From Acidobacteria bacterium 28-1 (GTDB taxonomy: Bacteria > Acidobacteriota > Blastocatellia > Pyrinomonadales > Pyrinomonadaceae), in NCBI GenBank assembly GCA_002050365.1, contig MWYZ01000070.1, forward strand, positions 1 through 64,000: a stretch of 64,000 nucleotides of DNA, written 5' to 3'. The number at the start of each line of letters is the position of its first letter. Positions within the stretch are counted from its first letter, which is position 1. The notes under the pieces are model-generated. The model had not been told where the DNA came from. It saw nothing but the letters and a program-made list of their open reading frames with translations, and did no database searches. Below are positions 13,721 through 48,581 of this stretch, piece by piece. The position numbers and the translations under genes are program-made.

Positions 13721-14473
13721 ATGTTATTAGAAATTAAAGATTTACATGCCGTAATTGACGGCAAAGAAATTTTAAAGGGCTTGAACCTGCAAGTTGATAA
13801 AGGCGAAGTTCACGCGATTATGGGTCCGAACGGTTCGGGCAAATCCACATTGGCGAAAGTTCTCGCCGGTCATCCGTCATATGAAGTGACGAAAGGCGAA
13901 GTCGTCTACGAAGGCACAAATTTACTTGAACTCGATCCTGACGAACGCGCTCGGAACGGTGTTTTTCTCGCGTTTCAATATCCGGTCGAAGTTCCGGGCG
14001 TGTCAAATGCACAGTTTTTGCGTCTTGCCTACAACGAGAAAATGAAGCATCTGGGCGAGGAAGAACTCGACCCGTTGGAGTTCAACGATTTGCTCAAAGA
14101 ACGGGCAAAAATAGTTGAAATGGACAAAAGTTTTTTTAATCGTTCGGTCAACGAAGGTTTTTCCGGCGGCGAAAAGAAACGCAACGAGATTTTGCAGATG
14201 GCGGTCCTTCAGCCGAAGCTCGCTGTTTTGGACGAAACCGATTCCGGTCTCGACATTGACGCTTTGCGAATTGTCGCCGAAGGGGTAAATAAATTGCGGA
14301 ACGCGGACAAGGCGATAATTTTGGTAACGCATTATCAAAGGCTTTTGAATTACGTCGAACCGGATTTTGTTCACGTTTTGGCAAACGGAAAAATCGTTAA
14401 AGAAGGCGGCAAAGAACTCGCGCTCGAACTCGAAGAAAAAGGCTACGATTGGGTCAAAGCAGCATCGAAATAA
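13721..14473 (+). CDS. sufC: Fe-S cluster assembly ATPase SufC
   Basis: 250 residues of the ABC-type ATPase of SufBCD. Walker [21 protein letters not shown], signature [14 protein letters not shown], Walker [17 protein letters not shown] and the H-loop [10 protein letters not shown] are all present. The DETDSGLD variant is characteristic of SufC. AGAGG lies upstream of the ATG. Resumes the suf order after the accessory insert. Confidence 0.95.
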
Positions 14474-14485
14474 AAGAGGTGAAAT

Positions 14486-14704
14486 ATGGCGGAAACAACT
14501 GTAAATCAATATGCGGAAATTCCAATTGATTATCAAAATGTCTTCGCGGAAAAAATTGGCGAGTTGAAAAACAGCTTTGAAAATAAAAGAGGAAATAACA
14601 TTGCAGAAAGTAGTAAAAGAAACAAATTACGGCGCAGCCTTTCGAGAAAATTTGGCGCGAGAAGAGAATGCTTGGTTGAAATATCTGCGCGAAAATGCGT
14701 TTGA
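14486..14704 (+). CDS. Small ORF between sufC and sufD (doubtful)
   Basis: 72 codons with a good ribosome binding site (GAGGTG 6 nt before ATG). Only the first ~38 residues (MAETTVNQYAEIPIDYQNVF and onwards) lie outside sufD; the remainder overlaps sufD in another frame and looks like shadow sequence. It could be a leader peptide that couples sufD translation, or the relic of a longer sufD N-terminus after a frameshift. Not recognised. Confidence 0.3.
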   Translation: MAETTVNQYAEIPIDYQNVFAEKIGELKNSFENKRGNNIAESSKRNKLRRSLSRKFGARRECLVEISARKCV

Positions 14705-15911
14705 GTTTTTCACTGAAAACGGTTTTCCAACCGTGAAGAACGAAGAATGGAAATATACAAATGTCGCGCCGATTGAAAGAGAAATTTTTGAAATTACAAA
14801 TGGTAGAGCGGTTGACGCGGAGAAAATCAGCGAGCTTTTTTCTAAAACCGAAAGTGAAAATCGCGTGGTTTTTGTCAACAACAAACTCAATCAAGAACTG
14901 ACGAATCTTTCAAATTTGCCCGAAGGCGCGAAGATTCTAAATTTAAACAAAGCGATTCAAGATGAAATTTTCAGCCAAATTGTTAGAAAGAATTTAGGGA
15001 AATCGGTTAATGCGGAAGCGAACGGTTTTACGGCTTTAAACACGGCTTTTATTGAAGAAGGCGTGTTTATTTTCGTTCCGAAAAACACGAAAATCGAAAC
15101 GCCGATTCATCTAATTTTTATCACCGATGAAAATACGGCGAGTTTTCCGCGTGTGTTGTTGGTTGCCGAACGCGGAAGCGAAGCGATGTTAATCGAAAGT
15201 TATCTGAGAACTGCCGAAACGAAATATCTAACCGATTCGGTAATTGAAATCGTTTTAGAAGACGACGCGAAGTTAAAACATCTGCGAGTTCAGCGCGAAA
15301 GTCATAACGCTTTTCACGTCGGAACGACGGCGGCGAATTTAAATCGCGCCAGCGTTTATGATTCGACGAATATCACGCTCGGCGCGCGCCTTTCGCGCCA
15401 CGACGTTCTGGTCAAATTCAATGCGGAAGGCGCGGAATGTTTTGTAGACGGACTTTATATGATTGCGGAAGAACAACACGCCGACACGCATTCGGTTATT
15501 GACCACGCTTTGCCGAACTGCCTTTCGCATCAAACTTATAAAGGAATCGTTGACGGAAAAGCCCGCGCGGTTTTTAACGGAAAAGTTTTCGTGCGCGAAA
15601 ATGCTTCGGGAACGGACGCGCAGCAGTCGAATAAAAATCTGCTTCTATCGAACGACGCACGGGTTGATACTAAACCGCAGCTTGAAATTTTCAACGACGA
15701 TGTGAAATGCGCTCACGGCGCAACCGTCGGACAATTGGAGGAAGAAGAGTTATTTTACTTATTAAGTCGCGGTTTGAATGAGCAACTGGCGCGAAATCTT
15801 TTAACTTACGGTTTTGCAGAAGAAATTATTAATAAAATCGAGATTGAATCAATCAAAAAGCAGTTGGACGAAGCGGTTTTGAATCGTTTGAATGCGAACC
15901 TGGAAATATAA
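14601..15911 (+). CDS. sufD: Fe-S cluster assembly protein SufD
   Basis: About 436 residues. Start taken at TTG 14601, which has AGAGGA 8-9 nt upstream; the ATG at 14577 precedes that SD and is less likely. SufD features are ENGFPTVKNEEWKYTNVAPI, AKLKHLRVQRES, VDGKARAVFNGKVFVRENA, DAQQSNKNLLLSNDARVDTKPQLEI and CAHGATVGQLEEEELFYLLSRG. The last 41 nt, encoding AVLNRLNANLEI-stop, recur three times downstream, each after an accessory gene unit (separate entries). Confidence 0.95.
   Translation: MQKVVKETNYGAAFRENLAREENAWLKYLRENAFEFFTENGFPTVKNEEWKYTNVAPIEREIFEITNGRAVDAEKISELFSKTESENRVVFVNNKLNQELTNLSNLPEGAKILNLNKAIQDEIFSQIVRKNLGKSVNAEANGFTALNTAFIEEGVFIFVPKNTKIETPIHLIFITDENTASFPRVLLVAERGSEAMLIESYLRTAETKYLTDSVIEIVLEDDAKLKHLRVQRESHNAFHVGTTAANLNRASVYDSTNITLGARLSRHDVLVKFNAEGAECFVDGLYMIAEEQHADTHSVIDHALPNCLSHQTYKGIVDGKARAVFNGKVFVRENASGTDAQQSNKNLLLSNDARVDTKPQLEIFNDDVKCAHGATVGQLEEEELFYLLSRGLNEQLARNLLTYGFAEEIINKIEIESIKKQLDEAVLNRLNANLEI
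15871..15911 (+). repeat. sufD 3'-end repeat, copy 1 (in sufD)
   Basis: Reference copy of a 41-nt unit. It begins AAGCGGTTTTGAATCG, ends CTGGAAATATAA, and encodes the sufD C-terminal tail AVLNRLNANLEI-stop. Copies of identical length lie at 16124, 16762 and 17374. Confidence 0.85.
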
Positions 15912-15914
15912 ATT

Positions 15915-16121
15915 ATGAGAGTTAGGACAAATATAATATTGGCGGAAGATATATTGGCGAAAATTGATGTCTTAGCAGGCGAAAAACAAAAGCGTTCGGC
16001 GGTTATCGAAACTGCTCTGCGCGAGTATATTGCGCGGGAAGAAAGCAAAGTGCCTGCCGATAACGGCACCGAAGTTGTTAACAAAAAAGGCGGTTCGAAA
16101 GCTAAATTAACGAAAGTTTAG
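15915..16121 (+). CDS. Ribbon-helix-helix antitoxin-like protein
   Basis: 68 residues: MRVRTNIILAEDILAKIDVL (beta strand then helix), then SAVIETALREYIAREE (second helix), fitting a small RHH antitoxin/DNA-binding protein. The tail KGGSKAKLTKV is basic. No toxin follows directly, but a MazF-like C-terminal remnant lies at 17763, so it may be the surviving antitoxin of a broken pair. Directly follows sufD and is followed by a copy of the sufD 3' end. Confidence 0.65.
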   Translation: MRVRTNIILAEDILAKIDVLAGEKQKRSAVIETALREYIAREESKVPADNGTEVVNKKGGSKAKLTKV

Positions 16122-16123
16122 TA

Positions 16124-16164
16124 AAGCAGTTTTGAATCGTTAGAACGAAAATTTGGAAACGTAA
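16124..16164 (+). repeat. sufD 3'-end repeat, copy 2
   Basis: Begins AAGCAGTTTTGAATCG and ends TTTGGAAACGTAA; 41 nt, no indels, 32 of 41 positions identical to copy 1. The tail-encoding frame is preserved except for an internal stop. Non-coding here; lies between the RHH gene and the retropepsin-like gene. Confidence 0.85.
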
Positions 16165-16167
16165 AAT

Positions 16168-16521
16168 ATGGGTTTAACATACATTGAAGGAAAAGTAATC
16201 GGAAATAACGATGAAACTGCAACGGTCAATTTTTTAGTTGACAGCGGCGCGAATTATACTCTTCTGACGAAAGATATTTGGGAGAGGCTCGGGTTGAAAG
16301 CGAAGAAAACTTTGAATTTTACGTTGGCTGACGGAACAAAAATCGAACGCGATATTTCCGAGTGTCGCATCGAAATTCTCGGTGAAGATTTTCATACGCC
16401 CGTAATTCTCGGCGAAGAAGGCGATGAATCGCTTCTTGGCGCGGTTACGTTAGAAATTCTCGGTGTCGTGCTGAATCCGTTTAACCGCAGTTTGCAGCCG
16501 ATGCGAATGATGTTGGCGTGA
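16168..16521 (+). CDS. Retropepsin-like aspartic protease family protein (clan AA)
   Basis: 117 residues with a single aspartic-protease half: FLVDSGANYTLLT (the D-S/T-G catalytic motif), a downstream hydrophobic strand and LLGAVTLEILG (the conserved hydrophobic-hydrophobic-G motif). Bacterial proteins of this size are presumed homodimeric retropepsin-like proteases; physiological substrates are unknown. It overlaps the DUF2442 gene by 4 nt (ATGA), so the two form a pair. Confidence 0.72.
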   Translation: MGLTYIEGKVIGNNDETATVNFLVDSGANYTLLTKDIWERLGLKAKKTLNFTLADGTKIERDISECRIEILGEDFHTPVILGEEGDESLLGAVTLEILGVVLNPFNRSLQPMRMMLA

Positions 16522-16802
16522 TGATTATAGTTGTCGAAGCACAAGCCAACGAAGAGTTTTCGCTCAATTTGAAATTTAGCGACGGAAGGCGGAAGCGTTT
16601 TGATGCAAAGCCATATCTGGATTATGAAGTTTTCAAACCGTTAAAAGACTTAAATTATTTCAAGCGAATCAAAATCGCTTTCGGCACGGTGCAGTGGACG
16701 GATGAGCAGGACATCAGCCCCGAAACTTTATGTTTGGAGAGTAAAGAAATTAGTAAAAATGAAACGATTTTAAATCGCTTGAATGCAAATTTGGAGGCGT
16801 AA
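16518..16802 (+). CDS. DUF2442 domain protein with sufD-derived C-terminal tail
   Basis: 94 residues. The N-terminal ~75 residues (LKFSDGRRKRFDAKPYL, FKPLKDLNYFKRIKIAFGTV, WTDEQDISPETLCLES) match DUF2442, a small domain often paired with toxin-antitoxin-like genes. The last ~13 residues (TILNRLNANLEA) are encoded by copy 3 of the sufD 3'-end repeat, so this protein appears to have acquired the sufD tail in frame. Confidence 0.72.
   Translation: MMIIVVEAQANEEFSLNLKFSDGRRKRFDAKPYLDYEVFKPLKDLNYFKRIKIAFGTVQWTDEQDISPETLCLESKEISKNETILNRLNANLEA
16762..16802 (+). repeat. sufD 3'-end repeat, copy 3 (forms the DUF2442 C-terminus)
   Basis: Begins AAACGATTTTAAATCG and ends TTTGGAGGCGTAA; 41 nt without indels, 30 of 41 positions identical to copy 1. 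It is read in the native frame as ILNRLNANLEA-stop. Confidence 0.85.
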
Positions 16803-16807
16803 AAGTT

Positions 16808-17374
16808 ATGCAGCAATTAAAAATTGTCGAGCCGTTAATTACAGTTTATGACCTTGAAGCGACACCCGACGACGGTAATATTTACGAACTTTTTGAAGGA
16901 GAATTGTCTGTGGCAAAAGCACCATCGTTGAAACATCAAGAACTTATCGGACGATTTGCAACAATTTTGTATAACTATCTTGACAATAATCCAACTGGGC
17001 GAGTTTGGATTACGCCCGGCGTGATTTTCGATGAATACAACAGCGCGATTCCCGACCTTGTTTTCATCGTCAAAGAAAGAATTGACCAAATTGCTTCGGG
17101 CATACACGTCGTTGGCGCACCGGATTTGGCAATTGAAATAATGTCGCCCGGTTCGGAAAACGTCCGCCGCGACCAGATTGTCAAGCGGCAAACTTACGCC
17201 AGATTCGGCGTGAAAGAATATTGGATTGTCGAGCCGCTTGTCGAGATGATTGAGATTTCACGCTTGCAGAAATATGTTTTAGCTTCGATTGGAGTTTTCA
17301 GAAACGCGGATGAAGTTTCGTCACCGCTTCTGCCTGATTTGAAATTTTCCGTGAAAGATGTATTTAGAAAGTAA
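16808..17374 (+). CDS. Uma2 family putative endonuclease (DUF820)
   Basis: 188 residues with Uma2 signatures: ELFEGELSVAKAPSLKHQEL, the PDLVFIVKER strand, and PDLAIEIMSPGSENVRRDQI followed by KRQTYARFGVKEYWIVEP. This matches a PD-(D/E)xK-like fold (PDLVF / AIEIMSP / K). Genes of this family are abundant in multicellular and soil bacteria; function is unknown. Followed directly by copy 4 of the sufD 3'-end repeat. Confidence 0.82.
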   Translation: MQQLKIVEPLITVYDLEATPDDGNIYELFEGELSVAKAPSLKHQELIGRFATILYNYLDNNPTGRVWITPGVIFDEYNSAIPDLVFIVKERIDQIASGIHVVGAPDLAIEIMSPGSENVRRDQIVKRQTYARFGVKEYWIVEPLVEMIEISRLQKYVLASIGVFRNADEVSSPLLPDLKFSVKDVFRK

Positions 17375-17414
17375 AGCGATTTTGAATCGTTTGAGCGCAA
17401 ATTTGAAAGCATAA
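17374..17414 (+). repeat. sufD 3'-end repeat, copy 4
   Basis: Begins AAGCGATTTTGAATCG and ends TTTGAAAGCATAA; 41 nt, no indels, 32 of 41 identical to copy 1. It overlaps the Uma2 stop codon by one base. The tail peptide is still readable in one frame (AILNRLSANLKA-stop) though no gene uses it. Confidence 0.85.
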
Positions 17415-17430: not shown

Positions 17431-17736
17431 ATGAGCGAAGATATTAAATGTCCTTCCTGCGGAGATTTACTAGACATTAATTGGAATTTGAACAAATGTC
17501 CAAAATGTGACGCTTCGCTCAAAGGAATTATTCCCAAAAAATCAAAAGAATCGAAGCAAAAAAGTTTTAATCTTAATCTAATTTTGGCTTTAGGAATTTC
17601 ATTTTTAGTTTTGATTCTAGGCATAACTGCAATAACGGTAGTTGGATTAAAAGGCGGAATTCCGACAGCGATTGTCGTAATTTTATCAATCTGTATTTTC
17701 ATCTCTATACGAAAAGGAGATTGGAATATTTTTTGA
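17431..17736 (+). CDS. Small zinc-ribbon membrane protein
   Basis: 101 residues: an N-terminal zinc ribbon (CPSCGDLL and KCPKCDASL), a basic linker, then two membrane helices (LNLILALGISFLVLILGITA and a second near TAIVVILSICIFISI). GGAG lies upstream of the ATG. Not recognised beyond this architecture. It is the last gene of the insert between sufD and the mazF remnant. Confidence 0.65.
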   Translation: MSEDIKCPSCGDLLDINWNLNKCPKCDASLKGIIPKKSKESKQKSFNLNLILALGISFLVLILGITAITVVGLKGGIPTAIVVILSICIFISIRKGDWNIF

Positions 17737-17762
17737 TAAATCTAGAATATTTCTAGAGTTTG

Positions 17763-17858
17763 CACAAAACAGTTTTGACAAATTACGTTGGTGAACTTTC
17801 GGAGAATAAATTACAAGAAATGAATGGAGCTTTGAAAATCGCTTTATTAATTAAATAA
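17763..17858 (+). pseudogene. MazF/PemK-like toxin C-terminal remnant
   Basis: An open stretch reads HKTVLTNYVGELSENKLQEM then NGALKIALLIK-stop, matching the last ~30 residues of MazF/PemK toxins (the G.L....L..V...L...L pattern). No upstream part or start is present. Its TAA overlaps the sufS ATG (TAATG at 17856-17860), so residual translation could couple to sufS. It may be the broken partner of the RHH antitoxin at 15915. Confidence 0.5.
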
Positions 17859-19102
17859 TGAAAACAGCAGTAAAAGAAATGAGCAATTGGGACGTTGAAA
17901 AAATTCGCAGAGACTTTCCCGTTTTGTCGCAAAAGGTGAACGGCAATCCGCTTGTCTATTTGGACAACGCGGCATCTTCGCAAGTTCCGAATATCGTGAT
18001 TGAACGCGGCTCGGAATATTTGAAAAATGAACATTCAAATATCCATCGCGGCGTGCATTATCTTTCGCAAAAAGCGACGACCGCTTACGAAGGCGCACGC
18101 GAAAAGGTGAAGAGATTTATCAATGCGAGAGACGTTAAAGAATGTATTTTCGTTCGCGGCTGCACTGAAGGAATTAACTTGGTCGCTTACGGTTACGGAC
18201 GCAAATTCGTTGGTGAGGGCGACGAAATTATCATCAGCGCAATGGAACACCACGCCAACATCGTGCCTTGGCAAATGTTGGCGGAAGAAAAAGGCTGCGT
18301 TCTGCGCGTGATTCCGATGAACCAGCGCGGCGAACTTATCATTGACGAATACGAAGCGATGCTCAATGAACGGACGAAATTCGTTTCAATCGTTCATATT
18401 TCCAACGCGCTCGGAACTCTGAATCCCGTCAAACAGATGATTGAATCGGCGCACAAATTCGGCGTTCCCGTCCTTGTTGACGCGGCGCAGAGCGTTCCGC
18501 ATTCGATAATTGACGTGCAGGATTTGGACTGCGATTTTCTTACCTTTTCGGGACACAAGATGTTTGCGCCGACCGGCAGCGGTGTGCTTTACGGCAAACA
18601 GGAATTACTGGAAACAATGAATCCGTTTATGGGCGGCGGCGATATGATTCGCACCGTGACGTTTGAAAAAACGACTTACGCGGGCTTGCCGAACAAATTT
18701 GAAGCGGGAACTCCGGCAATCGCGTCGAACATCGGACTCGGCGCGGCGATTGATTACCTCAATTCGATTGACCGCCAGTCCGCCATCGCTTACGAACACG
18801 AATTGGTTGAATACGCGACGGAAAAACTCTCGGCAATCGAGGGCGTGAAATTAATCGGCACGGCGCGGGAAAAAGCATCGGTCGTCTCCTTCACAATTGA
18901 AAATGTTCACCCGCACGACATCGGCACGATTTTAGACCAGCAAGGAATCGCCGTCCGCGCCGGACATCATTGCGCTCAACCTGTAATGCAATTCTTCCAA
19001 GTTCCCGCAACGGCTCGCGCTTCGTTTGCTTTTTACAACACGCGCGAGGAAGTCGACGTTTTGGCGGACGCGGTGCAAAAGGTGATTGAGGTTTTTGCGT
19101 GA
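17858..19102 (+). CDS. sufS: Cysteine desulfurase SufS
   Basis: 414 residues of a PLP-dependent group II cysteine desulfurase that supplies sulfur to SufU. Features: PLACE-like NPLVYLDNAASSQVP, HRGVHYLSQKAT, MEHHANIVPWQ, DAAQSVPHSIIDVQDLDCDF, the lysine motif FSGHKMFAPTGSGVLYG, and RAGHHCAQPVMQ with the active-site Cys. ATG 17858 overlaps the preceding stop; ATG at 17879 is an alternative. Its last 76 nt are repeated at 20292. Confidence 0.95.
   Translation: MKTAVKEMSNWDVEKIRRDFPVLSQKVNGNPLVYLDNAASSQVPNIVIERGSEYLKNEHSNIHRGVHYLSQKATTAYEGAREKVKRFINARDVKECIFVRGCTEGINLVAYGYGRKFVGEGDEIIISAMEHHANIVPWQMLAEEKGCVLRVIPMNQRGELIIDEYEAMLNERTKFVSIVHISNALGTLNPVKQMIESAHKFGVPVLVDAAQSVPHSIIDVQDLDCDFLTFSGHKMFAPTGSGVLYGKQELLETMNPFMGGGDMIRTVTFEKTTYAGLPNKFEAGTPAIASNIGLGAAIDYLNSIDRQSAIAYEHELVEYATEKLSAIEGVKLIGTAREKASVVSFTIENVHPHDIGTILDQQGIAVRAGHHCAQPVMQFFQVPATARASFAFYNTREEVDVLADAVQKVIEVFA
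19027..19102 (+). repeat. sufS 3'-end repeat, copy 1 (in sufS)
   Basis: Reference copy. It starts TGCTTTTTACAACAC and includes GACGTTTTGGCGGACGCGG and GAGGTTTTTGCG, ending at the sufS stop. A near-identical segment is at 20292-20367 after three accessory genes. Confidence 0.85.
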
Positions 19103-19113
19103 AGTTGTAAAAA

Positions 19114-19422
19114 ATGGAATTGAAATTATTGCGAAAAAGAGAGTTTCTAATACCTACGATTTATTTGATTTTCGTTACGGTATGTATTTTCGTTGCATTC
19201 GATTTTGAGGGAAGAATCGTCCCAATTGCGTGGATAGTTTTGTTGGTTATAACTTTGCCTTGGAGTATTATTTCGATTTTTTTCGGCTGGGCTATAATTC
19301 ACGGAGTTGCATTGGAATTTTTTGCCGTTATGTATTTTGGCTTCGCCATTGTTAACGCATTCTTTATTTATTTAATTGCAAAACCCAAAATCAAGGGTTT
19401 GCAATCATTAAATCTTGACTAA
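19114..19422 (+). CDS. Small membrane protein, unknown
   Basis: 102 residues with three or more hydrophobic segments (FLIPTIYLIFVTVCIFVAF, IAWIVLLVITLPWSIISIFF, ALEFFAVMYFGFAIVNAFF) and a basic start (MELKLLRKRE). Not recognised. It starts 12 nt after sufS within the insert bounded by the sufS 3'-end duplication. AT-rich compared with sufS. Confidence 0.55.
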   Translation: MELKLLRKREFLIPTIYLIFVTVCIFVAFDFEGRIVPIAWIVLLVITLPWSIISIFFGWAIIHGVALEFFAVMYFGFAIVNAFFIYLIAKPKIKGLQSLNLD

Positions 19423-19423
19423 A

Positions 19424-19534
19424 GATAATCTGCGAGCCGTTGTGCCGTATCACAAATCTGTCAAAGTCGGCACATTGGAAGCGATTTTGAATCAGACTGA
19501 AGTTAGTTTAGAAAATTTTCAAAAATTGCTCTAA
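19424..19534 (+). pseudogene. HicA-like toxin C-terminal remnant
   Basis: The frame reads KDNLRAVVPYHKSVKVGTLE then AILNQTEVSLENFQKLL-stop. This matches the C-terminal half of HicA double-stranded-RNA-binding-like toxins (the P.H..VK.GTL..IL.Q...S...F..LL pattern). The N-terminal part with the catalytic His is missing. A matching HicB N-terminal fragment is at 21512. Confidence 0.6.
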
Positions 19535-19539
19535 AGAAA

Positions 19540-19956
19540 ATGCCCGCAAAAGATATTTATCACGACACGGTTAAAAACGCTCTAATCAAAGACGGCTGGA
19601 CGATTACGCACGACCCTTTGCGTTTGAGCATTGACGATAAAAATTTGTTTATTGATTTGGGCGCGGAAAGAATCATTGCTGCCGTCAAGGGGACAAAGAA
19701 AATTGCCGTCGAAATCAAAAGTTTTGTCGGACGCTCGGAAGTTGACGACTTGGAAAACGCGGTCGGGCAGTTTGTTTTGTATCAAGACCTTTTGGAAGAG
19801 AAAGAGCCGGAACGCGAACTATTTTTAGCCATTCGCCGAAAAGCCTTTGACGGAATTTTCTCTCACCGCATCGGCAGTATTTTGCTTCGCAAAAAGCGTA
19901 TTAAGCTGCTTGTTTTTGACGAGAGAAATGAGGAGGTTGTGCAGTGGATAAGTTAG
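19540..19956 (+). CDS. xisH: XisH family protein (copy 1)
   Basis: 138 residues of the XisH family, first named from cyanobacterial fdxN-element excision factors. Features: AKDIYHDTVKNALIKDGW, IDLGAERIIAAVKGTKKIAV, EIKSFVGRSEVDDLENAVGQ with the PD-(D/E)xK-like ExK, and PERELFLAI. The family name does not prove an excision role here; XisH/XisI pairs are widespread in species without such elements. It overlaps xisI by 13 nt. Confidence 0.88.
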   Translation: MPAKDIYHDTVKNALIKDGWTITHDPLRLSIDDKNLFIDLGAERIIAAVKGTKKIAVEIKSFVGRSEVDDLENAVGQFVLYQDLLEEKEPERELFLAIRRKAFDGIFSHRIGSILLRKKRIKLLVFDERNEEVVQWIS

Positions 19957-20279
19957 AAAGTTACCAAAACATAATCGAACAGATTTTGAACGAATATGCC
20001 GCTATTCCGTTTGCTTACGGCGAGATTGATTCGGAAGCCGTTTTTGACCGGACGAAAGACCGCTATTTACTAATGACCGTCGGCTGGGAAAACGAGCGTC
20101 GGGTTCATAGTTGTCTGGTTCACGTTGACATAGTTGACGGCAAATTTTGGATTCAGCGCGACGGCACGGAAGACGGCATTGCGACCGAGCTAGAGCGAGC
20201 AGGCGTTTCCAAAAGCGATATTGTCCTGGCTTTTCACGAACCTGAGTTAAGGAAGTTCACCGAATATGCGGTCGTTTAG
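19944..20279 (+). CDS. xisI: XisI family protein (copy 1)
   Basis: 111 residues matching XisI: MDKLESYQNIIEQILNEYA, DRTKDRYLLMTVGWENERRV, LVHVDIVDGKFWIQRDGTED and the C-terminal AFHEPELRKFTEYAVV. Translationally overlapped with xisH. Followed 12 nt later by the duplicated sufS 3' end. Confidence 0.88.
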   Translation: MDKLESYQNIIEQILNEYAAIPFAYGEIDSEAVFDRTKDRYLLMTVGWENERRVHSCLVHVDIVDGKFWIQRDGTEDGIATELERAGVSKSDIVLAFHEPELRKFTEYAVV

Positions 20280-20291
20280 AATTTTGCGAAA

Positions 20292-20367
20292 TGCTTTTTA
20301 CAACACTTTTGGGGAAGTTGACGTTTTGGCGGACGCGGTGCAAAGGGTGATGGAGGTTTTTGCGTAA
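20292..20367 (+). repeat. sufS 3'-end repeat, copy 2 (relic)
   Basis: Closely matches sufS 19027-19102 without indels, including GACGTTTTGGCGGACGCGG and GAGGTTTTTGCGTAA. The frame still ends in a stop at the homologous place. It lies immediately after xisI copy 1, so the 19103-20291 segment is flanked by direct repeats of the sufS 3' end. Confidence 0.9.
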
Positions 20368-21598: not shown

Positions 21599-22019
21599 CG
21601 AAGATGCCCGCAAGGATATTTATCACGACACGGTTAAAAACGCGCTCATTAAAGACGGCTGGACAATTACGTCTGAAAATTTGTATCTACCTTGGGGAGG
21701 AATGGAAACTTACGTCGATATTGCGGCGGAAAAAGTTTTTATTGCCGAAAAAGAAGGTCGCAAAATCGCGGTTGAAGTCAAAAGTTTCGTTGGCAAATCA
21801 AATCTGAGCGAACTTGAAAAAGCGGTTGGACAGTTTATCATTTATCGTCTGGCAATGAGAAAGGAAGAGCCTGAACGCGAACTGTTTCTGGCGATCAGCG
21901 AAAAAATCTACAACAAACTTTTCCTTAATCCCGATGTGATAGAATTGATTGAAACCGAAAACCTGAAAGTCGTGGTTTTCAATGAGTCGAAAGAGTTAAT
22001 TGTGCGATGGATAAACTAG
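21561..22019 (+). CDS. xisH: XisH family protein (copy 2), original start shifted out of frame
   Basis: The frame contains the full XisH domain (DIYHDTVKNALIKDGWTIT, DIAAEKVFIAEKEGRKIAVE, VKSFVGKSNLSELEKAVGQ, PERELFLAIS). In copy 1 the gene starts ATGCCCGCAAAAGATATT. Here the homologous ATG at 21604 reads ATGCCCGCAAGGATATT, one base shorter, so that ATG is out of frame. Translation would need an upstream TTG (21561, inside the hicB fragment) or another non-standard start. Either an authentic decay event or a start-site change. Confidence 0.75.
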   Translation: MSRTNRKSQIANNEDARKDIYHDTVKNALIKDGWTITSENLYLPWGGMETYVDIAAEKVFIAEKEGRKIAVEVKSFVGKSNLSELEKAVGQFIIYRLAMRKEEPERELFLAISEKIYNKLFLNPDVIELIETENLKVVVFNESKELIVRWIN

Positions 22020-22342
22020 AAAATTATCGAGACATCGTTGAAAAAGTTATCAGCGAATACGCGGCAATTCCATACAGCTACGGTGAAATTGAACGCCGCA
22101 CAATGTTTGACCGCGAAAAAGATTCTTACCTTCTGTACGTCGTCGGCTGGAATAATCGCGGGCGAATTCACGGCATCAACCTTCACATAGACATTATCAA
22201 CGGCAAAATTTATATCCAGCACGATAGCACGGAAGAAGGAATTGCGACGGATTTAGAACTTGCAGGCGTTCCGAAAAGTGATATTGTTTTGGCTTGGCAC
22301 GAACCCGAACTTAGAAAATACACTGAATACGCCGTTGCGTGA
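22007..22342 (+). CDS. xisI: XisI family protein (copy 2)
   Basis: 111 residues, same family and overlap arrangement as copy 1: MDKLENYRDIVEKVISEYA, DREKDSYLLYVVGWNNRGRI, LHIDIINGKIYIQHDSTEEG, WHEPELRKYTEYAVA. The two xisHI units are clearly paralogous but diverged, so they are not a very recent duplication. Confidence 0.88.
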   Translation: MDKLENYRDIVEKVISEYAAIPYSYGEIERRTMFDREKDSYLLYVVGWNNRGRIHGINLHIDIINGKIYIQHDSTEEGIATDLELAGVPKSDIVLAWHEPELRKYTEYAVA

Positions 22343-22752: not shown

Positions 22753-23202
22753 ATGTCAGAGTTAAATGATTTATATCAGGAAGTAATCTTAGACCACAAT
22801 AAAAATCCGCGAAATTTCCGCGAGATTGAAACTGCGAACTTTAAAGCCGACGGATACAATCCGCTGTGCGGCGACCAGTTGAAAGTTTTTCTCGAAGTAG
22901 AAGATGAACGGGTGAAAGACGTTTCTTTTGTCGGTTCGGGCTGCGCGATTTCAAAGGCTTCGGCAAGTATGATGACGCAAGTTGTTAAAGGAAAATCCAA
23001 GGAAGAAGCCGAGAAAATGTTCGACGAATTTCACCGAATGGTTTTGGGCGAACTCGACGAAGAAACTGAAGAAAACAATTTGGGAAAATTAAAAATTTTC
23101 GCCGGCGTGCGCGAATTTCCCGCGCGGGTGAAGTGCGCGTCTTTGAGTTGGCACACAATGAACGCCGCGCTTCACGGTGAAGAAGAAGTTTCGACTGAAT
23201 GA
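22753..23202 (+). CDS. sufU: Fe-S scaffold / sulfur-transfer protein SufU
   Basis: 149 residues, IscU-like with the SufU-specific insertion. Cys ligands are in YNPLCGDQLK, GSGCAISKASASMM and RVKCASLSWHTM; the Asp after the first Cys is present. It accepts sulfur from SufS as in Firmicutes-type SUF systems. It is separated from sufS by about 3.6 kb of accessory genes. Its stop overlaps the ATG of the broken globin gene. Confidence 0.93.
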   Translation: MSELNDLYQEVILDHNKNPRNFREIETANFKADGYNPLCGDQLKVFLEVEDERVKDVSFVGSGCAISKASASMMTQVVKGKSKEEAEKMFDEFHRMVLGELDEETEENNLGKLKIFAGVREFPARVKCASLSWHTMNAALHGEEEVSTE

Positions 23203-39480: not shown

Positions 39481-43236
<3,756 letters not shown>

Positions 43237-43251
43237 TTTTGGAGTAAAACG

Positions 43252-43926
43252 ATGGAATTAGTTTTAGATTTTCCGAAAGTAGAACCGCGAATAAAACAAC
43301 CGCCGGTTGAAAAAGAACGAACGGTTGAACGGGTTTATTTGCAAGATGTCAGTTGGGAAACATATCGGCAGATAGTCGAAGACCAAATGGGTAAGCGGAG
43401 TTTGCGTCTCACTTATGATGACGGAGATTTAGAAATTATGGTTGTTTCCTATAAACACGAAAACTATTCGTTCACATTGGGGGAAATTGTCAGCACAATT
43501 AGCGATTGGCTGGAACTTGATTTTGTTGCAGCAGGTTCAACTACGTTTCGAGGCGAAAAAAAGAAAAAAGGCTTTGAAGGCGACGGTAGTTTTTATTTCA
43601 AGAATGCACAAGTCATTCGCGGCAAAAGCGAAATTGATTTGAACATTGACCCGTCGCCCGAACTCGTTATCGAAGTTGACATCACGCACGGCTCGCTGTC
43701 GAAGTTTTCGATTTTAGCGGCTGTTGGTGTTGAAGAAATCTGGCGTTTTGACGGCGAAGGAATGAAATTTTATCGCCTGCAAGGCGAAAATTACGAAGAA
43801 GTCACGGAAAGCGTTTGTCTGCGAGGCGTGAAAAGTGAAACAGTTACCGAATTGCTTTTCGCCGCTGAAGAAATGAAGCGTTCCGAATGGCTCAAACTCG
43901 TTCACAAATTGATTGGGAAAAATTGA
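43252..43926 (+). CDS. Uma2 family putative endonuclease
   Basis: 224 residues with Uma2 features: KRSLRLTYDDGDLEIMVVSY, SEIDLNIDPSPELVIEVDIT then HGSLSKFSILAAVGVEEIWR, and the terminal FYRLQGENYEEV strand. A PD-like PELVIEVD motif is visible. GGAG precedes the ATG; 15 nt after gyrB, so probably co-transcribed. Distinct from the shorter Uma2 at 16808. Confidence 0.8.
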   Translation: MELVLDFPKVEPRIKQPPVEKERTVERVYLQDVSWETYRQIVEDQMGKRSLRLTYDDGDLEIMVVSYKHENYSFTLGEIVSTISDWLELDFVAAGSTTFRGEKKKKGFEGDGSFYFKNAQVIRGKSEIDLNIDPSPELVIEVDITHGSLSKFSILAAVGVEEIWRFDGEGMKFYRLQGENYEEVTESVCLRGVKSETVTELLFAAEEMKRSEWLKLVHKLIGKN

Positions 43927-44049: not shown

Positions 44050-45324
44050 ATGTTCAATAATTTTACCAAGCCACGCCGAGTTGTTATTACGGGTTTCGGC
44101 TGCGTTACGCCAATCGGCATCGGGCGCAAATTTTTCTGGAAAGCCTTACGCGAAGGAAAAAGCGGTGTCGGCAGAATCGAAAGTTTCGATGTTTCCGAGT
44201 CAAAAGTGAAAATTGCGGCGGAAGTTAAAAATTTCGATTGGGAAGCCGAACTCGATCCAAAAGACCGCAAGAATGTTGCGCGAACTGTTCCGCTGGCGCT
44301 GGCGGCGGCGCGTGAAGCAGTTAAAGATGCGAAAATTGAAACTGACAAACTCACTTTAACCGAAAGACAAAATTTCGGCGTGATTTTAGGGACGGGCGGC
44401 GGCGGTTTGGCGTTCACGGAAAAACAATATAGATACTGGTTCGCGGGCGAAGAAAAAAAGGCGAGTATTTACACGATTCCTGCTTCGACGCACGGCGGAT
44501 TATCTTCGGAACTCTCGATGGTTTTCGGTCTGCACGGTCTTTCGCACATTGTTTCGACCGGCTGCACAAGTTCAACCGACGCAATCGCTTACGCGGCACA
44601 GCACATTGCGCTCGGCAAGCAGGATTTTATGCTGACCGGCGGAGTTGACGCACCGCTAGCACTCGGAATTCTAAAAGCCTTCAATGTAATGACCGTTCTT
44701 ACAAACGAGTGGAATGATGAACCGAACCGCGCTTCACGTCCGTTTTCAAAAGACCGTTCTGGTATTGTATTGGGCGAAGGCGCGTGGATTTTCGTCCTTG
44801 AAAGTTTGGAAAGCGCGCACCGGCGAAAGGCGAAAATTTACGCCGAAATTAAAGGTTACGGTTCGACGTGCGATGCTTATCATCGCGTCCGTCTGGAAGA
44901 AAACGGCGTTGAGCCGGCGCGGGCGATGTCTTTAGCGATGGAAGATGCCGGAGTTTCACCCGAAACAGTTGATTATGTTAATCTGCACGGAACTTCGACG
45001 CAGTTAAATGACAAAATCGAAACTTTGAGCATCAAAAATGCCTTTGGCGCACACGCTTACAAACTTTCGACGAGCGCGACGAAATCGCAAATCGGACATC
45101 CGCAGGGCGCATCGGGCGCTGCTGGAATCGGCGCAACACTACTCGCATTAAACGAAAATATTATCGCGCCGACAATAAATCTTGACGTGCCTGACGCGGA
45201 TTGCGATTTAGACTACACACCGAATAAAGCGAAGGAAAAAGCCAACGTAAAAATCGCATTGTGCAACTGCATCGGCTTCGGCTCGAAAAATTCCGCGTTG
45301 GTTTTAGAGAAAATTAGAGTCTAA
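44050..45324 (+). CDS. Beta-ketoacyl-ACP synthase II-type (FabF-like)
   Basis: About 424 residues from ATG 44050 (MFNNFTKPRRVVITGFGCVT). Cys-His-His triad: STGCTSSTDAIAYAAQ, NLHGTSTQLND, KSQIGHPQGASGAAG. Condensing enzyme of type II fatty-acid or polyketide synthesis; no acyl carrier protein or other fab gene is adjacent, so it could be either. The stop codon TAA (45322-45324) lies within the terminal core box of the last attC site. Confidence 0.88.
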   Translation: MFNNFTKPRRVVITGFGCVTPIGIGRKFFWKALREGKSGVGRIESFDVSESKVKIAAEVKNFDWEAELDPKDRKNVARTVPLALAAAREAVKDAKIETDKLTLTERQNFGVILGTGGGGLAFTEKQYRYWFAGEEKKASIYTIPASTHGGLSSELSMVFGLHGLSHIVSTGCTSSTDAIAYAAQHIALGKQDFMLTGGVDAPLALGILKAFNVMTVLTNEWNDEPNRASRPFSKDRSGIVLGEGAWIFVLESLESAHRRKAKIYAEIKGYGSTCDAYHRVRLEENGVEPARAMSLAMEDAGVSPETVDYVNLHGTSTQLNDKIETLSIKNAFGAHAYKLSTSATKSQIGHPQGASGAAGIGATLLALNENIIAPTINLDVPDADCDLDYTPNKAKEKANVKIALCNCIGFGSKNSALVLEKIRV

Positions 45325-45432
45325 CGACCGAGTTGACGTGGGGCGAAACCGAATTCACGCAAGCCGAAAGAAACAACGCAACGTGATAAGAAAATCGCTG
45401 CCCGCGCCCTCACATCCAATGACTTGTTGGGC
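45319..45432 (-). repeat. attC site 1 (last cassette, abuts fabF)
   Basis: 114 nt. Minus-strand R'' GCCCAAC (45432-45426), R' GTTAGAC (45325-45319, perfect GTTRRRY). Stem words GACGTGGGGCGAAACC on the fabF side; the other arm is more diverged (GCCCTCACATCCAATGA). Confidence 0.88.
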
Positions 45433-45448
45433 GGAACTTCGGCAGCAC

Positions 45449-46171
45449 TCAAGTTTTATTTGCCCATTTAAATGAGCTAAGGATTTGTTTAATCGTTTCA
45501 TCCCAACCAGATTGATGTATGAAAACAAATACAACTGTTTTGTTACCGAAGGAGCGATAATAAAAATCAATGTCTTTAAACAGCAAGGTATGACTTCCCA
45601 TTTTTAAGACACCCATCGTTTGTTTCTCCCAAGTTCCATAATTCCCCGAAGTCAACGAAGCCTTTTCAAAAACACTTAGGGCTTTATTAAGTCCTTGATT
45701 CTTAATTTTTTCAGTAACTTGTTGAGAGTTTAAGTTAACGACGAATACTCTAGCTTGCAAATCTGATGTCAGACCATTACCCCAACCCTTACTTCCAACG
45801 TGAGCCGCGCAATTTTCAAATGGCAGAACGGAATTCATAACTTTTGCATCTTCTTCATCAGAGAAGCCGTTATTAAAATCAAGCTGATTTAATTCGTTGA
45901 AGTCCTGCCAGCTTAGATAGAGATTTTTTGGAGGTTCTAGCGCAGGCTTCGGCGCAAGCCAATCTTCAGGTATGTCAAACGTCGCATCATAAGGTTTGAG
46001 CCGAATAGTTCTGCCTTCAAGGAGAGAATACGGACTGTTGTTTTCAGACGAATGAGTTGCCCCGTAAGGATTTAAAGTTTTTATTTTGTCCCAAGCGAAT
46101 AAATAAATGGCTGCTGTGCCAATAGAGAATGCGATGATAGCAACCAACAAACGCTGTATGTATTTTTTCAT
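45449..46171 (-). CDS. Cassette 5 gene: secreted hypothetical protein
   Basis: 240 residues with an N-terminal signal/anchor (MKKYIQRLLVAIIAFSIGTA). A beta-rich body (RTIRLKPYDATFDIPEDWLA, LYLSWQDFNELNQ) and a C-terminal LLFKDIDFYYRSFGNKTVVF-like strand series. Not recognised. It fills its cassette almost completely (ends 17 nt before attC 1), as integron cassette genes do. Confidence 0.65.
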   Translation of the reverse strand: MKKYIQRLLVAIIAFSIGTAAIYLFAWDKIKTLNPYGATHSSENNSPYSLLEGRTIRLKPYDATFDIPEDWLAPKPALEPPKNLYLSWQDFNELNQLDFNNGFSDEEDAKVMNSVLPFENCAAHVGSKGWGNGLTSDLQARVFVVNLNSQQVTEKIKNQGLNKALSVFEKASLTSGNYGTWEKQTMGVLKMGSHTLLFKDIDFYYRSFGNKTVVFVFIHQSGWDETIKQILSSFKWANKT

Positions 46172-46242
46172 TTCAACTCCGATTGTAACAAAGAACTATT
46201 AAACTGTTATTTCTTTAGACACTGAAAACGCGAATTTGTTCC

Positions 46243-46356
46243 GCCCAACGGTTGAGATGACGTGGGGCGAAACCGCCGCCACGCCCGCCGAAAAGTAACG
46301 GACGACGTTCCAAACAAAGTCGCTGTTTCGCCCTCACGTCCATTGAATTGTTGTGC
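46243..46356 (-). repeat. attC site 2
   Basis: 114 nt. Plus-strand ends GCCCAAC (46243-46249) and GTTGTGC (46350-46356); arms GATGACGTGGGGCGAAACC and GTTTCGCCCTCACGTCC pair. Downstream of the GNAT cassette gene on the minus strand. Confidence 0.9.
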
Positions 46357-46370
46357 TGCGTGTTGGTGAG

Positions 46371-46808
46371 CTATGCTCGTTTCATCTTAAAGTGGGCATC
46401 ATCTTCGCCTTCTACAACGAAGCCTAGCCGCTCATAAAACCGCCGTGCGGGATTCACTTTCAACACTTGCAGAGTCACAAATCGCTCCTGCCGTTGAGCC
46501 TGACGAATAATTTTCAAAATGACGACACTGCCAATTCCTTTACTTTGGTGTTCAGGCAGTATTTGGATGTTGCCAATATGCGCTCTATCTTCCTTGTAAT
46601 CTACCTCAACACGCCCAATGTCGTGACCATTTAACATGATAATCTGGTTGGCATCAGGCTGAAAATGTTCCTTAAAATGGCTTTGCTGCCACGCCTCATC
46701 CCAACCCCAAGTAGCTTCGATGTAATCATACATAGTTGTGCAATGTAAGGCATACAAGAAGCCATAATCTTCTGGTGTAGCGATGCGAATGTTGATTGCA
46801 TCTTCCAT
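46371..46808 (-). CDS. Cassette 4 gene: GNAT family N-acetyltransferase
   Basis: About 145 residues from ATG 46808 (MEDAINIRIATPEDYGFLYA). A longer start would run into attC 3. Acetyl-CoA-binding motif A is IGNIQILPEHQSKGIGSVVI, followed by VTLQVLKVNPARRFYERLGF. Substrate unknown; GNAT enzymes are common cassette cargo, including antibiotic acetyltransferases, but nothing here indicates which substrate. Confidence 0.85.
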   Translation of the reverse strand: MEDAINIRIATPEDYGFLYALHCTTMYDYIEATWGWDEAWQQSHFKEHFQPDANQIIMLNGHDIGRVEVDYKEDRAHIGNIQILPEHQSKGIGSVVILKIIRQAQRQERFVTLQVLKVNPARRFYERLGFVVEGEDDAHFKMKRA

Positions 46809-46847
46809 ACGCTTTAGTTTTGCATTCGGCACCGTCGCACATAAGCA

Positions 46848-46959
46848 GCACAACGATTGAGTTGACGTGGGGCGAAACCGAATACAGACAACGTGAAATT
46901 AACCACGCAAGTTTTTAAAGAATAGCTGTTTCGCCCTCACGTCCAATGATTTGTTGGGC
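46848..46959 (-). repeat. attC site 3
   Basis: 112 nt. Plus-strand ends GCACAAC (46848-46854) and GTTGGGC (46953-46959). Conserved arms TTGACGTGGGGCGAAACC and GTTTCGCCCTCACGTCC. Confidence 0.9.
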
Positions 46960-46994
46960 GGCGGCTTCACTGGAAACGCGCCGCTTGTTTTCTT

Positions 46995-47462
46995 TCACGT
47001 TTCAACAGCGCGATTGCTTGCGCGAAAAATTTTCCAATTGATAACTGTTCCGACAAGATAGGCTAAACCGATTACCAGCGAAACCAGAGAAAACACGACT
47101 TCACGCGGTGCAACCTGCACCGATGATGTAGCTATCTGAAAGATTTGCTGAAAAACGAAGACTCCGCGAAGCGTGTAAATAGCACCTATCAACAACAAAG
47201 CTATTGTCAAAAGCGGCAACCGACGAATTACTCCTGCGCCCGAAAAAGCATACAAACCCCAGATGGTAAAAACCGCTACCAGAACTAACGTTATCAGCGC
47301 GGGAAAAGCCGAACCGGATTCTGCCGCCGTTGCCATATCTTCACCTGCGCCAAAATATCTGTAAGCGGGCGCACCGACGAAAATAATGACGAGATGCAGA
47401 AGTGCGACAACAAAGCTAAGGATGCCGCCTAATTTCAACCATTGATTTCCATTACGCATCAT
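46995..47462 (-). CDS. Cassette 3 gene: four-helix membrane protein
   Basis: 155 residues with about four membrane helices (LGGILSFVVALLHLVIIFVG, FPALITLVLVAVFTIWGLYA, LLTIALLLIGAIYTLRGVF, VVFSLVSLVIGLAYLVGTVI). No known motif. The start codon lies 16 nt from the upstream attC 4, typical of a compact cassette. Confidence 0.7.
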   Translation of the reverse strand: MMRNGNQWLKLGGILSFVVALLHLVIIFVGAPAYRYFGAGEDMATAAESGSAFPALITLVLVAVFTIWGLYAFSGAGVIRRLPLLTIALLLIGAIYTLRGVFVFQQIFQIATSSVQVAPREVVFSLVSLVIGLAYLVGTVINWKIFRASNRAVET

Positions 47463-47477
47463 AAGCTACCGATAGCC

Positions 47478-47591
47478 GCCCAACGGTTGAGATGACGTGG
47501 GGCGAAACCGCCAACACGCAACTCCGAGTTTAACGGACATCTTCGATAACAAAGTCGCTGTTTCGCCCTCACGTCCATTGAATTGTTATAC
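47478..47591 (-). repeat. attC site 4
   Basis: 114 nt. Plus-strand ends GCCCAAC (47478-47484) and GTTATAC (47585-47591); arms GATGACGTGGGGCGAAACC and GTTTCGCCCTCACGTCC. Central part nearly identical to site 5. Confidence 0.9.
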
Positions 47592-47605
47592 AGCATTTTA
47601 GCAAT

Positions 47606-48382
47606 CTATGACGCGCTCCGGTCACGCAACCTGCGCTCAAATTCGTTTAAGTCAGACTTCTTAGACAAATTTACCAACTCATCTTTTAACTTCGGATACT
47701 CAGACTCAGAAACTTTGAGAAAGTCCGCAATTACGTGCAAATAGTCGTTTTCGTGCGGATGACTAACATCTATGTAAGCCCTTAAATACGCTTCTCGATT
47801 ATCAGGGCTTTTGGCTCGAATCTGGTCAGCTATCCTCGCAGATTGTTCTGCTATCCTTGCAGATTGTTCTGCGGCAATTTGAGTTTTTGATTCTTCCTCC
47901 ACAAATGTATTCATTTGTTCGGGCGTAAAATTCCATCCTTTATTTTGAAGAAGACTTAGTAGTTTTTCGTCAGCTCCGTTTTCGTGTCTCAATTCACTCC
48001 GCGCGAAGTCTCTCACGAGTTGAAAATCGGGTGAACTTAAAAACTCAACTTTCTTTGCGTCGGAAGCCCTATCCTCGTAAACCTTATAGCCAATGTAAAC
48101 GACAAATGCGATAACGGCAATGACAATAATTCCTATGACGAGTTGAATAAGTCCATAAAAAAGATTGGTTATTGTGCCGGCGGGTGTCGCACAGATAAGC
48201 CAAATCAGCCCAACGATAATGAGACTAGCTATCGCACCATACCATTTCTGCCGGTCAATTTCTTCGGGAGTAACAACGAAACCGCATTGTGGGCATTTGC
48301 GCGTTGTTTGGGTTACGCGCATCTTTAGCTGCAAAGTCGTTCTACAGTTTGGACAAGTCCAGAAGTATTTGTAGCCAGCCAT
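47606..48382 (-). CDS. Cassette 2 gene: zinc-ribbon membrane protein
   Basis: 258 residues. N-terminal zinc ribbon (CPNCRTTL ... KCPQCGF), two membrane helices (WYGAIASLIIVGLIWLICAT, LVIGIIVIAVIAFVVYIGYK), then a helical cytoplasmic part with a tandem heptapeptide (EQSARIA twice, then DQIRA). Not recognised. Domain order resembles the small zinc-ribbon membrane protein at 17431 but without clear homology. Confidence 0.7.
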   Translation of the reverse strand: MAGYKYFWTCPNCRTTLQLKMRVTQTTRKCPQCGFVVTPEEIDRQKWYGAIASLIIVGLIWLICATPAGTITNLFYGLIQLVIGIIVIAVIAFVVYIGYKVYEDRASDAKKVEFLSSPDFQLVRDFARSELRHENGADEKLLSLLQNKGWNFTPEQMNTFVEEESKTQIAAEQSARIAEQSARIADQIRAKSPDNREAYLRAYIDVSHPHENDYLHVIADFLKVSESEYPKLKDELVNLSKKSDLNEFERRLRDRSAS

Positions 48383-48444
48383 AAAAATCTAGAGTGAAAG
48401 TTTAGCCATCACAACTTTTCCTAATCGTCTGCAACGTGAGAGCT

Positions 48445-48556
48445 GTATAACGGCTGAGATGACGTGGGGCGAAACCGCCAACACGCAACTCCGAGTTAAC
48501 GGACAACGTGATAATAAAGTCGCTGTTTCGCCCTCACGTCCATTGAATTGTTGGAC
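48445..48556 (-). repeat. attC site 5 (first cassette)
   Basis: 112 nt. Plus-strand ends GTATAAC (48445-48451) and GTTGGAC (48550-48556); arms GATGACGTGGGGCGAAACC and GTTTCGCCCTCACGTCC. Confidence 0.9.
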
Positions 48557-48581
48557 AGCGCGTTGATTTAAACGAGTTACT

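Follow-up and report, generated by a model that had tools for sequence, protein, structure and literature searches.

Displaced sufD tails between sufD and sufS of Acidobacteria bacterium 28-1: a probable stack of alternative sufD neighbours

The window is a stretch of 64,000 nt of Acidobacteria bacterium 28-1 (contig MWYZ01000070.1, positions 1 to 64,000) and carries a suf gene cluster. Between sufD and sufS, three extra copies of the last 41 nt of sufD alternate with small accessory genes. The spacer is probably a fossil stack of alternative sufD neighbours, built by recombination anchored on one side. Each repeat goes with the gene downstream of it, and the array therefore joins several pieces of the form "sufD tail plus neighbour". 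It looks like a set of swapped-in neighbours, not like a new kind of mobile cassette.

Repeat array between sufD and sufS

Copies of the sufD 3' end start at 15871 (R1, sufD itself), 16124 (R2), 16762 (R3) and 17374 (R4), each 41 nt long and ungapped. Pairwise identity among the four is 30–33 of 41; identity to the sufD copy is 32/41 at 16124, 30/41 at 16762 and 32/41 at 17374. The runner-up ungapped match to the sufD end reaches 25/41 in the window and 20/41 in the sufD–sufS spacer. For 2,000 simulated spacers (Markov-1) the mean maximum is 21.8, and the highest never exceeds 27 of 41. By pattern and BLAST search of the whole 4.15-Mb assembly the family is confined to the spacer: two copies are recovered at E ~1e-4, and all other matches are at chance level. 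A dispersed repeat is excluded, as the genome holds no other copies of the 41-mer.

All copies are in register with the sufD frame, reading EAVLNRLNANLEI in sufD and KAVLNR*NENLET, ETILNRLNANLEA and KAILNRLSANLKA in the copies. Most differences between R3 and sufD are synonymous; R2 carries an in-frame stop codon (TAG). The C-terminus of the DUF2442 protein is R3 read in frame (...SKNETILNRLNANLEA*), and a close DUF2442 homologue in the suf spacer of genome G004 has a different C-terminus. The left edge of the repeat is sharp to ~3 nt only, and the joint of Uma2 and repeat in the sister genome G003 has ~14 extra nt. Rfam gives no match to a structured RNA at 15.0–23.5 kb. An earlier note, made from the letters of this stretch, had described four ungapped copies at these positions, 30–32 of 41 identical to sufD, and the in-frame DUF2442 end; both descriptions hold. 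A whole-genome search for the 41-mer, named there as a check, places the copies at the suf locus only and not scattered.

Neighbours of sufD in relatives and the proposed joints

sufD was located in 107 of 119 family genomes, and about 100 suf loci were read; many of the assemblies are fragmented. The sufD–sufS distance in relatives is ~0 to 2.25 kb. Near-empty spacers of 9–40 nt occur in many of them; here, the inserts are flanked by direct repeats of the target. The accessory genes directly behind sufD differ by species and include RHH, Uma2, retropepsin, MazEF-like, DUF4160-like plus DUF2442, and others. Relatives with accessory genes yet without the repeat are common.

RHH lies directly after sufD in nine genomes of several genera (G001, G002, G004, G020, G026, G031, G044, G045, G055), and in G002 and G026 sufS starts right after it without a repeat. 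RHH is therefore an old neighbour and not an insert. The retropepsin family occurs in 8 of the 119 genomes, in all eight within the sufD–sufS spacer and in five directly behind sufD. Uma2 is found directly behind sufD in G151 (83% at the amino-acid level), G003, G079, G081, G173 and G174; most Uma2 homologues sit away from sufD. The retropepsin and Uma2 units, headed by a sufD fragment here, are thus attached to sufD in other genomes, and the order of tail and gene is collinear with real sufD–gene junctions. Since both genes adjoin the true sufD end there, the repeat is the head of the following unit. The gene order is sufD, Uma2, sufD-tail copy, retropepsin, sufS in G003, and sufD, RHH, sufD-tail copy, ~12 first codons of Uma2, sufS in G001; these two orders indicate that the sufD tail moves together with its downstream gene. 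In possible donors, e.g. G151, G003 and G016, the same genes likewise lie between sufD and sufS.

Three expectations of the earlier note change with these loci. It had each repeat close the preceding unit; G001, G003, G151 and the genomes with retropepsin or Uma2 behind sufD place the repeat at the head of the next. It had counted RHH among the inserted units, and the nine genomes of several genera speak otherwise. It had expected spacings of several sizes with the same repeat at each junction: spacers of 0 to several units do occur, and accessory genes without the repeat are common.

The tails themselves may point to foreign sources. R3 is closest to the sufD tail of G151 (37/42, own sufD 31/42), with a gap of 5 nt to the Uma2 ATG in both; G151 lies outside the genus and holds the closest Uma2 found behind sufD. 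The best sufD tail for R4 is that of G030 (35/42). For all five sufD-tail relics, which are short sequences, the own-genome tail ranks 10th–21st of 101. Recombination across the sufD–sufS spacer is documented independently by G004, whose sufD groups with G000 and G002 (84% nt) and whose sufS 3' part groups with G001, G006 and G008 (91–93%).

The repeat begins at the same sufD point in all joints, ~42 nt before the end of the stop codon; in all three, the gene in front of the repeat ends near the place where a sufS start would be expected. AAAGC opens four of five relics, as in sufS codons 2–3, and none of 94 readable sufD tails (GAAGC or GAGGC usual). In a restricted test the 8-mer of sufS codons 2–4 ranks 1–2 of 113 offsets at the breakpoint in 30 of 30 comparisons, effectively a single test because the breakpoint is common to all. 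Each joint may thus be read as a recombination of two chromosomes, one contributing "gene X / sufS start" and the other "sufD tail / gene Y".

By the proposed mechanism, DNA of a relative carrying a sufD tail and its neighbour gene would have recombined into the locus. One side would be anchored by ordinary homology in a suf gene (sufD or sufS); the other would be an illegitimate joint, formed where the sufS start (ATG AAAGCAGT) resembles the sufD tail (GAAGCGGT). Through such a joint the old neighbour would stay and a piece of foreign sufD tail would be trapped. Three rounds would produce the order sufD-RHH-(tail-retropepsin-DUF2442)-(tail-Uma2)-(tail-zinc ribbon)-sufS. The tails were probably retained for the last sufD codons (TTG GAG/GAA), which would hold the Shine-Dalgarno sequence of the next gene. 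By direct reading, GGAGG or GGAA stands 9–10 nt upstream of the next start codon in R1, R2, R3, G003 and G151, and a neighbour gene may accordingly work only with a sufD tail in front. Natural transformation is a candidate route of DNA uptake; comEC and dprA homologues are present in the genome.

Relics at other gene ends and features of the locus

Whole-gene profiles (sufD C-terminal part, sufS, sufU) were run against 166 spacers. All matches at E <0.2, bar the sufU match of G145, are same-strand ends of the genes on either side of the spacer concerned: sufD 3' ends in G000 and G003, sufS 3' ends in G000, G034 and G145, and sufU 5' ends in G147 and G080. sufS 5' starts stand before inserted genes in G044 and G008 and, more weakly (short profile or by eye), in G031 and G020. 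Relics across loci are 37 to 126 nt long. Reversed-spacer controls give a best E of 0.24 for short profiles and 0.63 for whole-gene profiles. The sufU-start relic of G145 is an artefact of a mis-called true sufU start and was rejected.

Two of these loci have further features. In G031 (L045) a DNA methyltransferase-like open reading frame (ORF) of a probable restriction-modification pair carries a fused sufS start, and complete sufS lies downstream. In G034 (L055), ~1.05–1.7 kb past the sufS stop and on the reverse strand, a sufS-end relic stands behind XisHI and is followed by an unrelated gene; further on, an 85-nt copy of the XisH 5' end is fused to a hydrolase-like gene, giving a patchwork.

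Features of the suf locus are listed in Table 1. The copy of the sufS 3' end at 20292–20365, on which the earlier note was silent, is an equivalent event at the next gene. A second XisHI pair lies at ~21604–22342, after this relic, and an apparent HicA-type toxin 3'-end remnant (by eye) at 19420–19537, between sufS and XisH. In G020 the ORF before sufS closes with an end (LSEEKLQELNEALKIAL) similar to the probable toxin remnant at 17756–17857.

Table 1. Features of the suf locus (positions in the window)
Feature	Position	Strand	Evidence and remarks
sufC, SUF-system ABC ATPase	13721–14473	+	Pfam ABC_tran; operon position
sufD, core gene	14601–15911	+	Pfam SUFBD_core 4.8e-87; start putative (listed ORF opens with TTG at 14577)
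R1, true sufD 3' end	15871–15911	+	
RHH / VapB-like gene	15915–16121	+	Pfam VapB_antitoxin 6e-5, weak, slightly under cut-off
R2, displaced sufD tail heading the retropepsin unit	16124–16164	+	GGAA 9 nt upstream of next ATG
Retropepsin-like gene (aspartic protease-like)	16168–16521	+	Pfam gag-asp_proteas 1e-9
DUF2442 gene	16518–16802	+	Pfam DUF2442 2.9e-12; C-terminus from R3
R3, displaced sufD tail heading the Uma2 unit	16762–16802	+	GGAGG 10 nt upstream of Uma2 ATG
Uma2 gene	16808–17374	+	Pfam Uma2 4e-26; stop codon abuts R4
R4, displaced sufD tail before the zinc-ribbon-like membrane ORF	17374–17414	+	
ORF with two CxxC motifs and hydrophobic C-terminus	17431–17736	+	Zinc-ribbon matches sub-threshold only, no accepted family
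Probable MazF-type toxin 3'-end remnant, directly before sufS	17756–17857	+	Read by eye
sufS, cysteine desulfurase, core gene	17858–19102	+	Pfam Aminotran_5 4.5e-148 (class-V aminotransferase)
XisH-XisI pair, inserted behind sufS	19540–20279	+	Pfam XisH 4e-55, XisI 2e-45
sufS 3'-end relic behind the XisHI unit	20292–20365	+	Last 74 nt of sufS, 66/74 identical
sufU, next core gene	22753–23202	+	Pfam NifU_N 2e-25

Relics were surveyed in the rest of the genome on a sample of ~1.5 of 4.15 Mb (1,058 ORFs). Isolated 3'-end copies downstream of their own gene were found in 10 cases, versus 2 upstream (Fisher p 0.02) and 2 of 2,023 mid-gene controls (p 0.0005). Among the 10 are radA, accompanied by a BrnT-BrnA pair, and hemH, accompanied by a DUF4160-like ORF and DUF2442, as well as dapA, the gene for methylmalonyl-CoA mutase and an inositol-phosphate-synthase-like gene; manual inspection added a 642-aa gene with a HigB-HigA pair. 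The arrangement radA-BrnTA-relic (L204:5991-8134) recurs in G044 (L299), which belongs to another genus; the closer relatives G006 and G004 have no BrnTA there. One candidate (C59) was not counted, being a larger duplication, since the adjoining ORF is also repeated. Start relics show no excess in the sampled genome (9 upstream versus 11 in the downstream control), and the genome-wide claim is therefore limited to tail relics.

It is possible, if on balance doubtful, that in this family the ends of housekeeping genes act generally as attachment sites for small accessory modules (toxin–antitoxin-like, Uma2, DUF2442, XisHI). Such modules would spread between genera without a recombinase, riding on a conserved neighbour whose 3' tail would both contain their ribosome-binding site and act as a shared address. 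If so, they would be homology-borne mobile genes, and tail relics would be their readable record.

Alternative explanations and known systems

Several observations weigh against a stack of swapped-in neighbours. The resemblance at the joints amounts to 5–7 of 8 bases only, and an unrestricted microhomology search of the sufS start against the sufD tail favoured spots other than the breakpoint. Tails of 42 nt carry little phylogenetic signal, and no robust tree is possible from them; the preference of R2 and R4 for a foreign donor is 2–3 bases only, and own-gene duplication followed by decay is possible for both. No genome with the exact donor piece of R4 was found among the ~100 loci read. comEC and dprA, which suggest natural competence, are common to most bacteria. 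The hemH relic is by far closest to its own gene (40, versus 22 for the next); it would agree with simple duplication of the target or with a donor very near to this genome, and duplication of the own gene looks right in this case.

Insertion with long target duplication is the alternative that survives best, and is nevertheless unlikely for the array. A gene would enter near the sufD end and duplicate the recipient's own 41 nt, and the copies would then decay. The own sufD tail is never the closest, R3 shares 8 sites with G151 versus 2 with own sufD, the inserted genes already adjoin sufD elsewhere, and the three left edges coincide despite different preceding genes. Isolated tail relics behind housekeeping genes with toxin–antitoxin-like inserts (radA-BrnTA, hemH, 642-aa gene-HigBA) speak for it, as does the hemH relic, nearest to its own gene, and the pattern is published for restriction-modification genes, as far as later papers relate it. 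Origin of both repeats from the own target holds for hemH and, by the ranks of the short tails, does not hold at sufD.

Quite improbable are selected leader elements, i.e. ribosome-binding or coupling signals duplicated or converged without recombination between species. The GGAA or GGAGG of the tail, 9–10 nt before the next ATG in R1, R2, R3, G003 and G151, would suit such a role. Selection on a Shine-Dalgarno sequence would not preserve 41 nt including the upstream EAVLNRL codons, however; most accessory genes in the relatives' spacers have no such leader, and the ribosome-binding site behind R4 is outside the repeat.

A site-specific cassette system, in which an integrase adds units with a 41-nt site at the sufD end, as in integrons or at tRNA ends, has very little probability. 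The layout of unit, repeat and unit and the coinciding edges resemble one, and the genome has an integron integrase and the window an attC-like array. By direct reading, though, the 41-mers have no attC core sites (RYYYAAC / GTTRRRY), and the 41-mer is absent from the rest of the genome. A Pfam scan of the locus finds no recombinase and no transposase among its genes, and the units have no matching terminal inverted repeats. The other relics are sufS starts, sufS ends, sufU starts, radA, hemH and dapA, of 37–126 nt; as they differ in gene, end and length, there is no common recombination site. The earlier note's serial cassette insertion at the end of a core gene is thus retained as serial addition of accessory genes with the core gene intact, and given up as a cassette system. 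The attC-like array is a separate feature of the window, at 45312–48575, with five attC-like repeats 0.6–0.95 kb apart and minus-strand cassette-like ORFs, one of them a GNAT acetyltransferase. It looks like an integron cassette array, with the integron integrase elsewhere in the genome.

Least probable of all is a homing-like drive, in which nuclease-like Uma2 and XisH would cut unoccupied sufD–sufS junctions and be copied in with flanking sufD: Uma2 does occupy the same sufD site in several genera, and co-conversion would bring the sufD tail along, but there is no evidence of cutting, the pattern is the same at the retropepsin, RHH and BrnTA units, which have no such nuclease, and most Uma2 homologues are located elsewhere. 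Apart from this locus, the window holds a GyrB gene with an intein at 39517–43236 (Pfam Intein_splicing 2.7e-21, residues 440–866) and, directly after it, a further Uma2 gene at 43252–43926.

The way in which orphan toxin–antitoxin-like genes enter conserved operons is little understood, as a mobile element is missing from most of them. At the suf locus the joints can still be read, and sister genomes preserve several intermediate states. If the spacer is indeed a stack of swapped-in sufD neighbours, displaced gene tails would be molecular fossils by which imports could be dated and traced to their source in any genome, and a mechanism known from polymorphic toxin loci would extend to a housekeeping operon. 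In the open literature, outside which most subscription journals lie, nothing was found directly on this pattern with toxin–antitoxin genes or in this family.

The nearest counterparts are the orphan immunity-gene arrays of the type VI secretion system (T6SS) of Vibrio cholerae, for which a displacement model akin to homology-facilitated illegitimate recombination was proposed (Kirchberger et al. 2017; PMC5361080). In both systems genes are inserted one after another behind a conserved anchor, and the former neighbour is not lost but shifted further downstream; a remnant of the upstream gene's 3' end, described in one T6SS case, is also shared. The suf array differs in that its anchors are housekeeping genes, its followers are unrelated small genes, the function of the upstream protein is kept, and the anchor may be on either side. 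Displacement of C-terminal tips in Rhs (Jackson et al. 2009; PMC2935791) likewise leaves series of displaced tips that are joined to fragments of a conserved core gene. Rhs, however, swaps its own C-terminus through allelic tips, and circular intermediates are invoked; the product of sufD is unchanged in kind. In distinction from T6SS and Rhs arrays alike, the anchor sufD is not a polymorphic toxin or an effector with immunity genes.

Restriction-modification genes inserted with long target duplication (Nobusato et al. 2000; Furuta et al. 2010; both as cited in PMC3874152 and PMC1643837) are, in those citing accounts, transposase-free inserts between direct target repeats on the order of 100 bp. 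The restriction-modification-like pair of G031, with its duplicated sufS start, resembles them as they are related there. The sufD repeats differ from the insertions so described in being better read as donor tails, stacked three deep, and the inserts here are mostly toxin–antitoxin-like or orphan small genes. Integron cassettes share the separation of unrelated genes by a repeat; unlike them, the suf array has no attC, and its repeat is the coding end of the neighbouring core gene. New here are the housekeeping operon as anchor, the three-deep stack with intermediate states in sister genomes, and the genome-wide evidence of tail relics that accompany small accessory genes.

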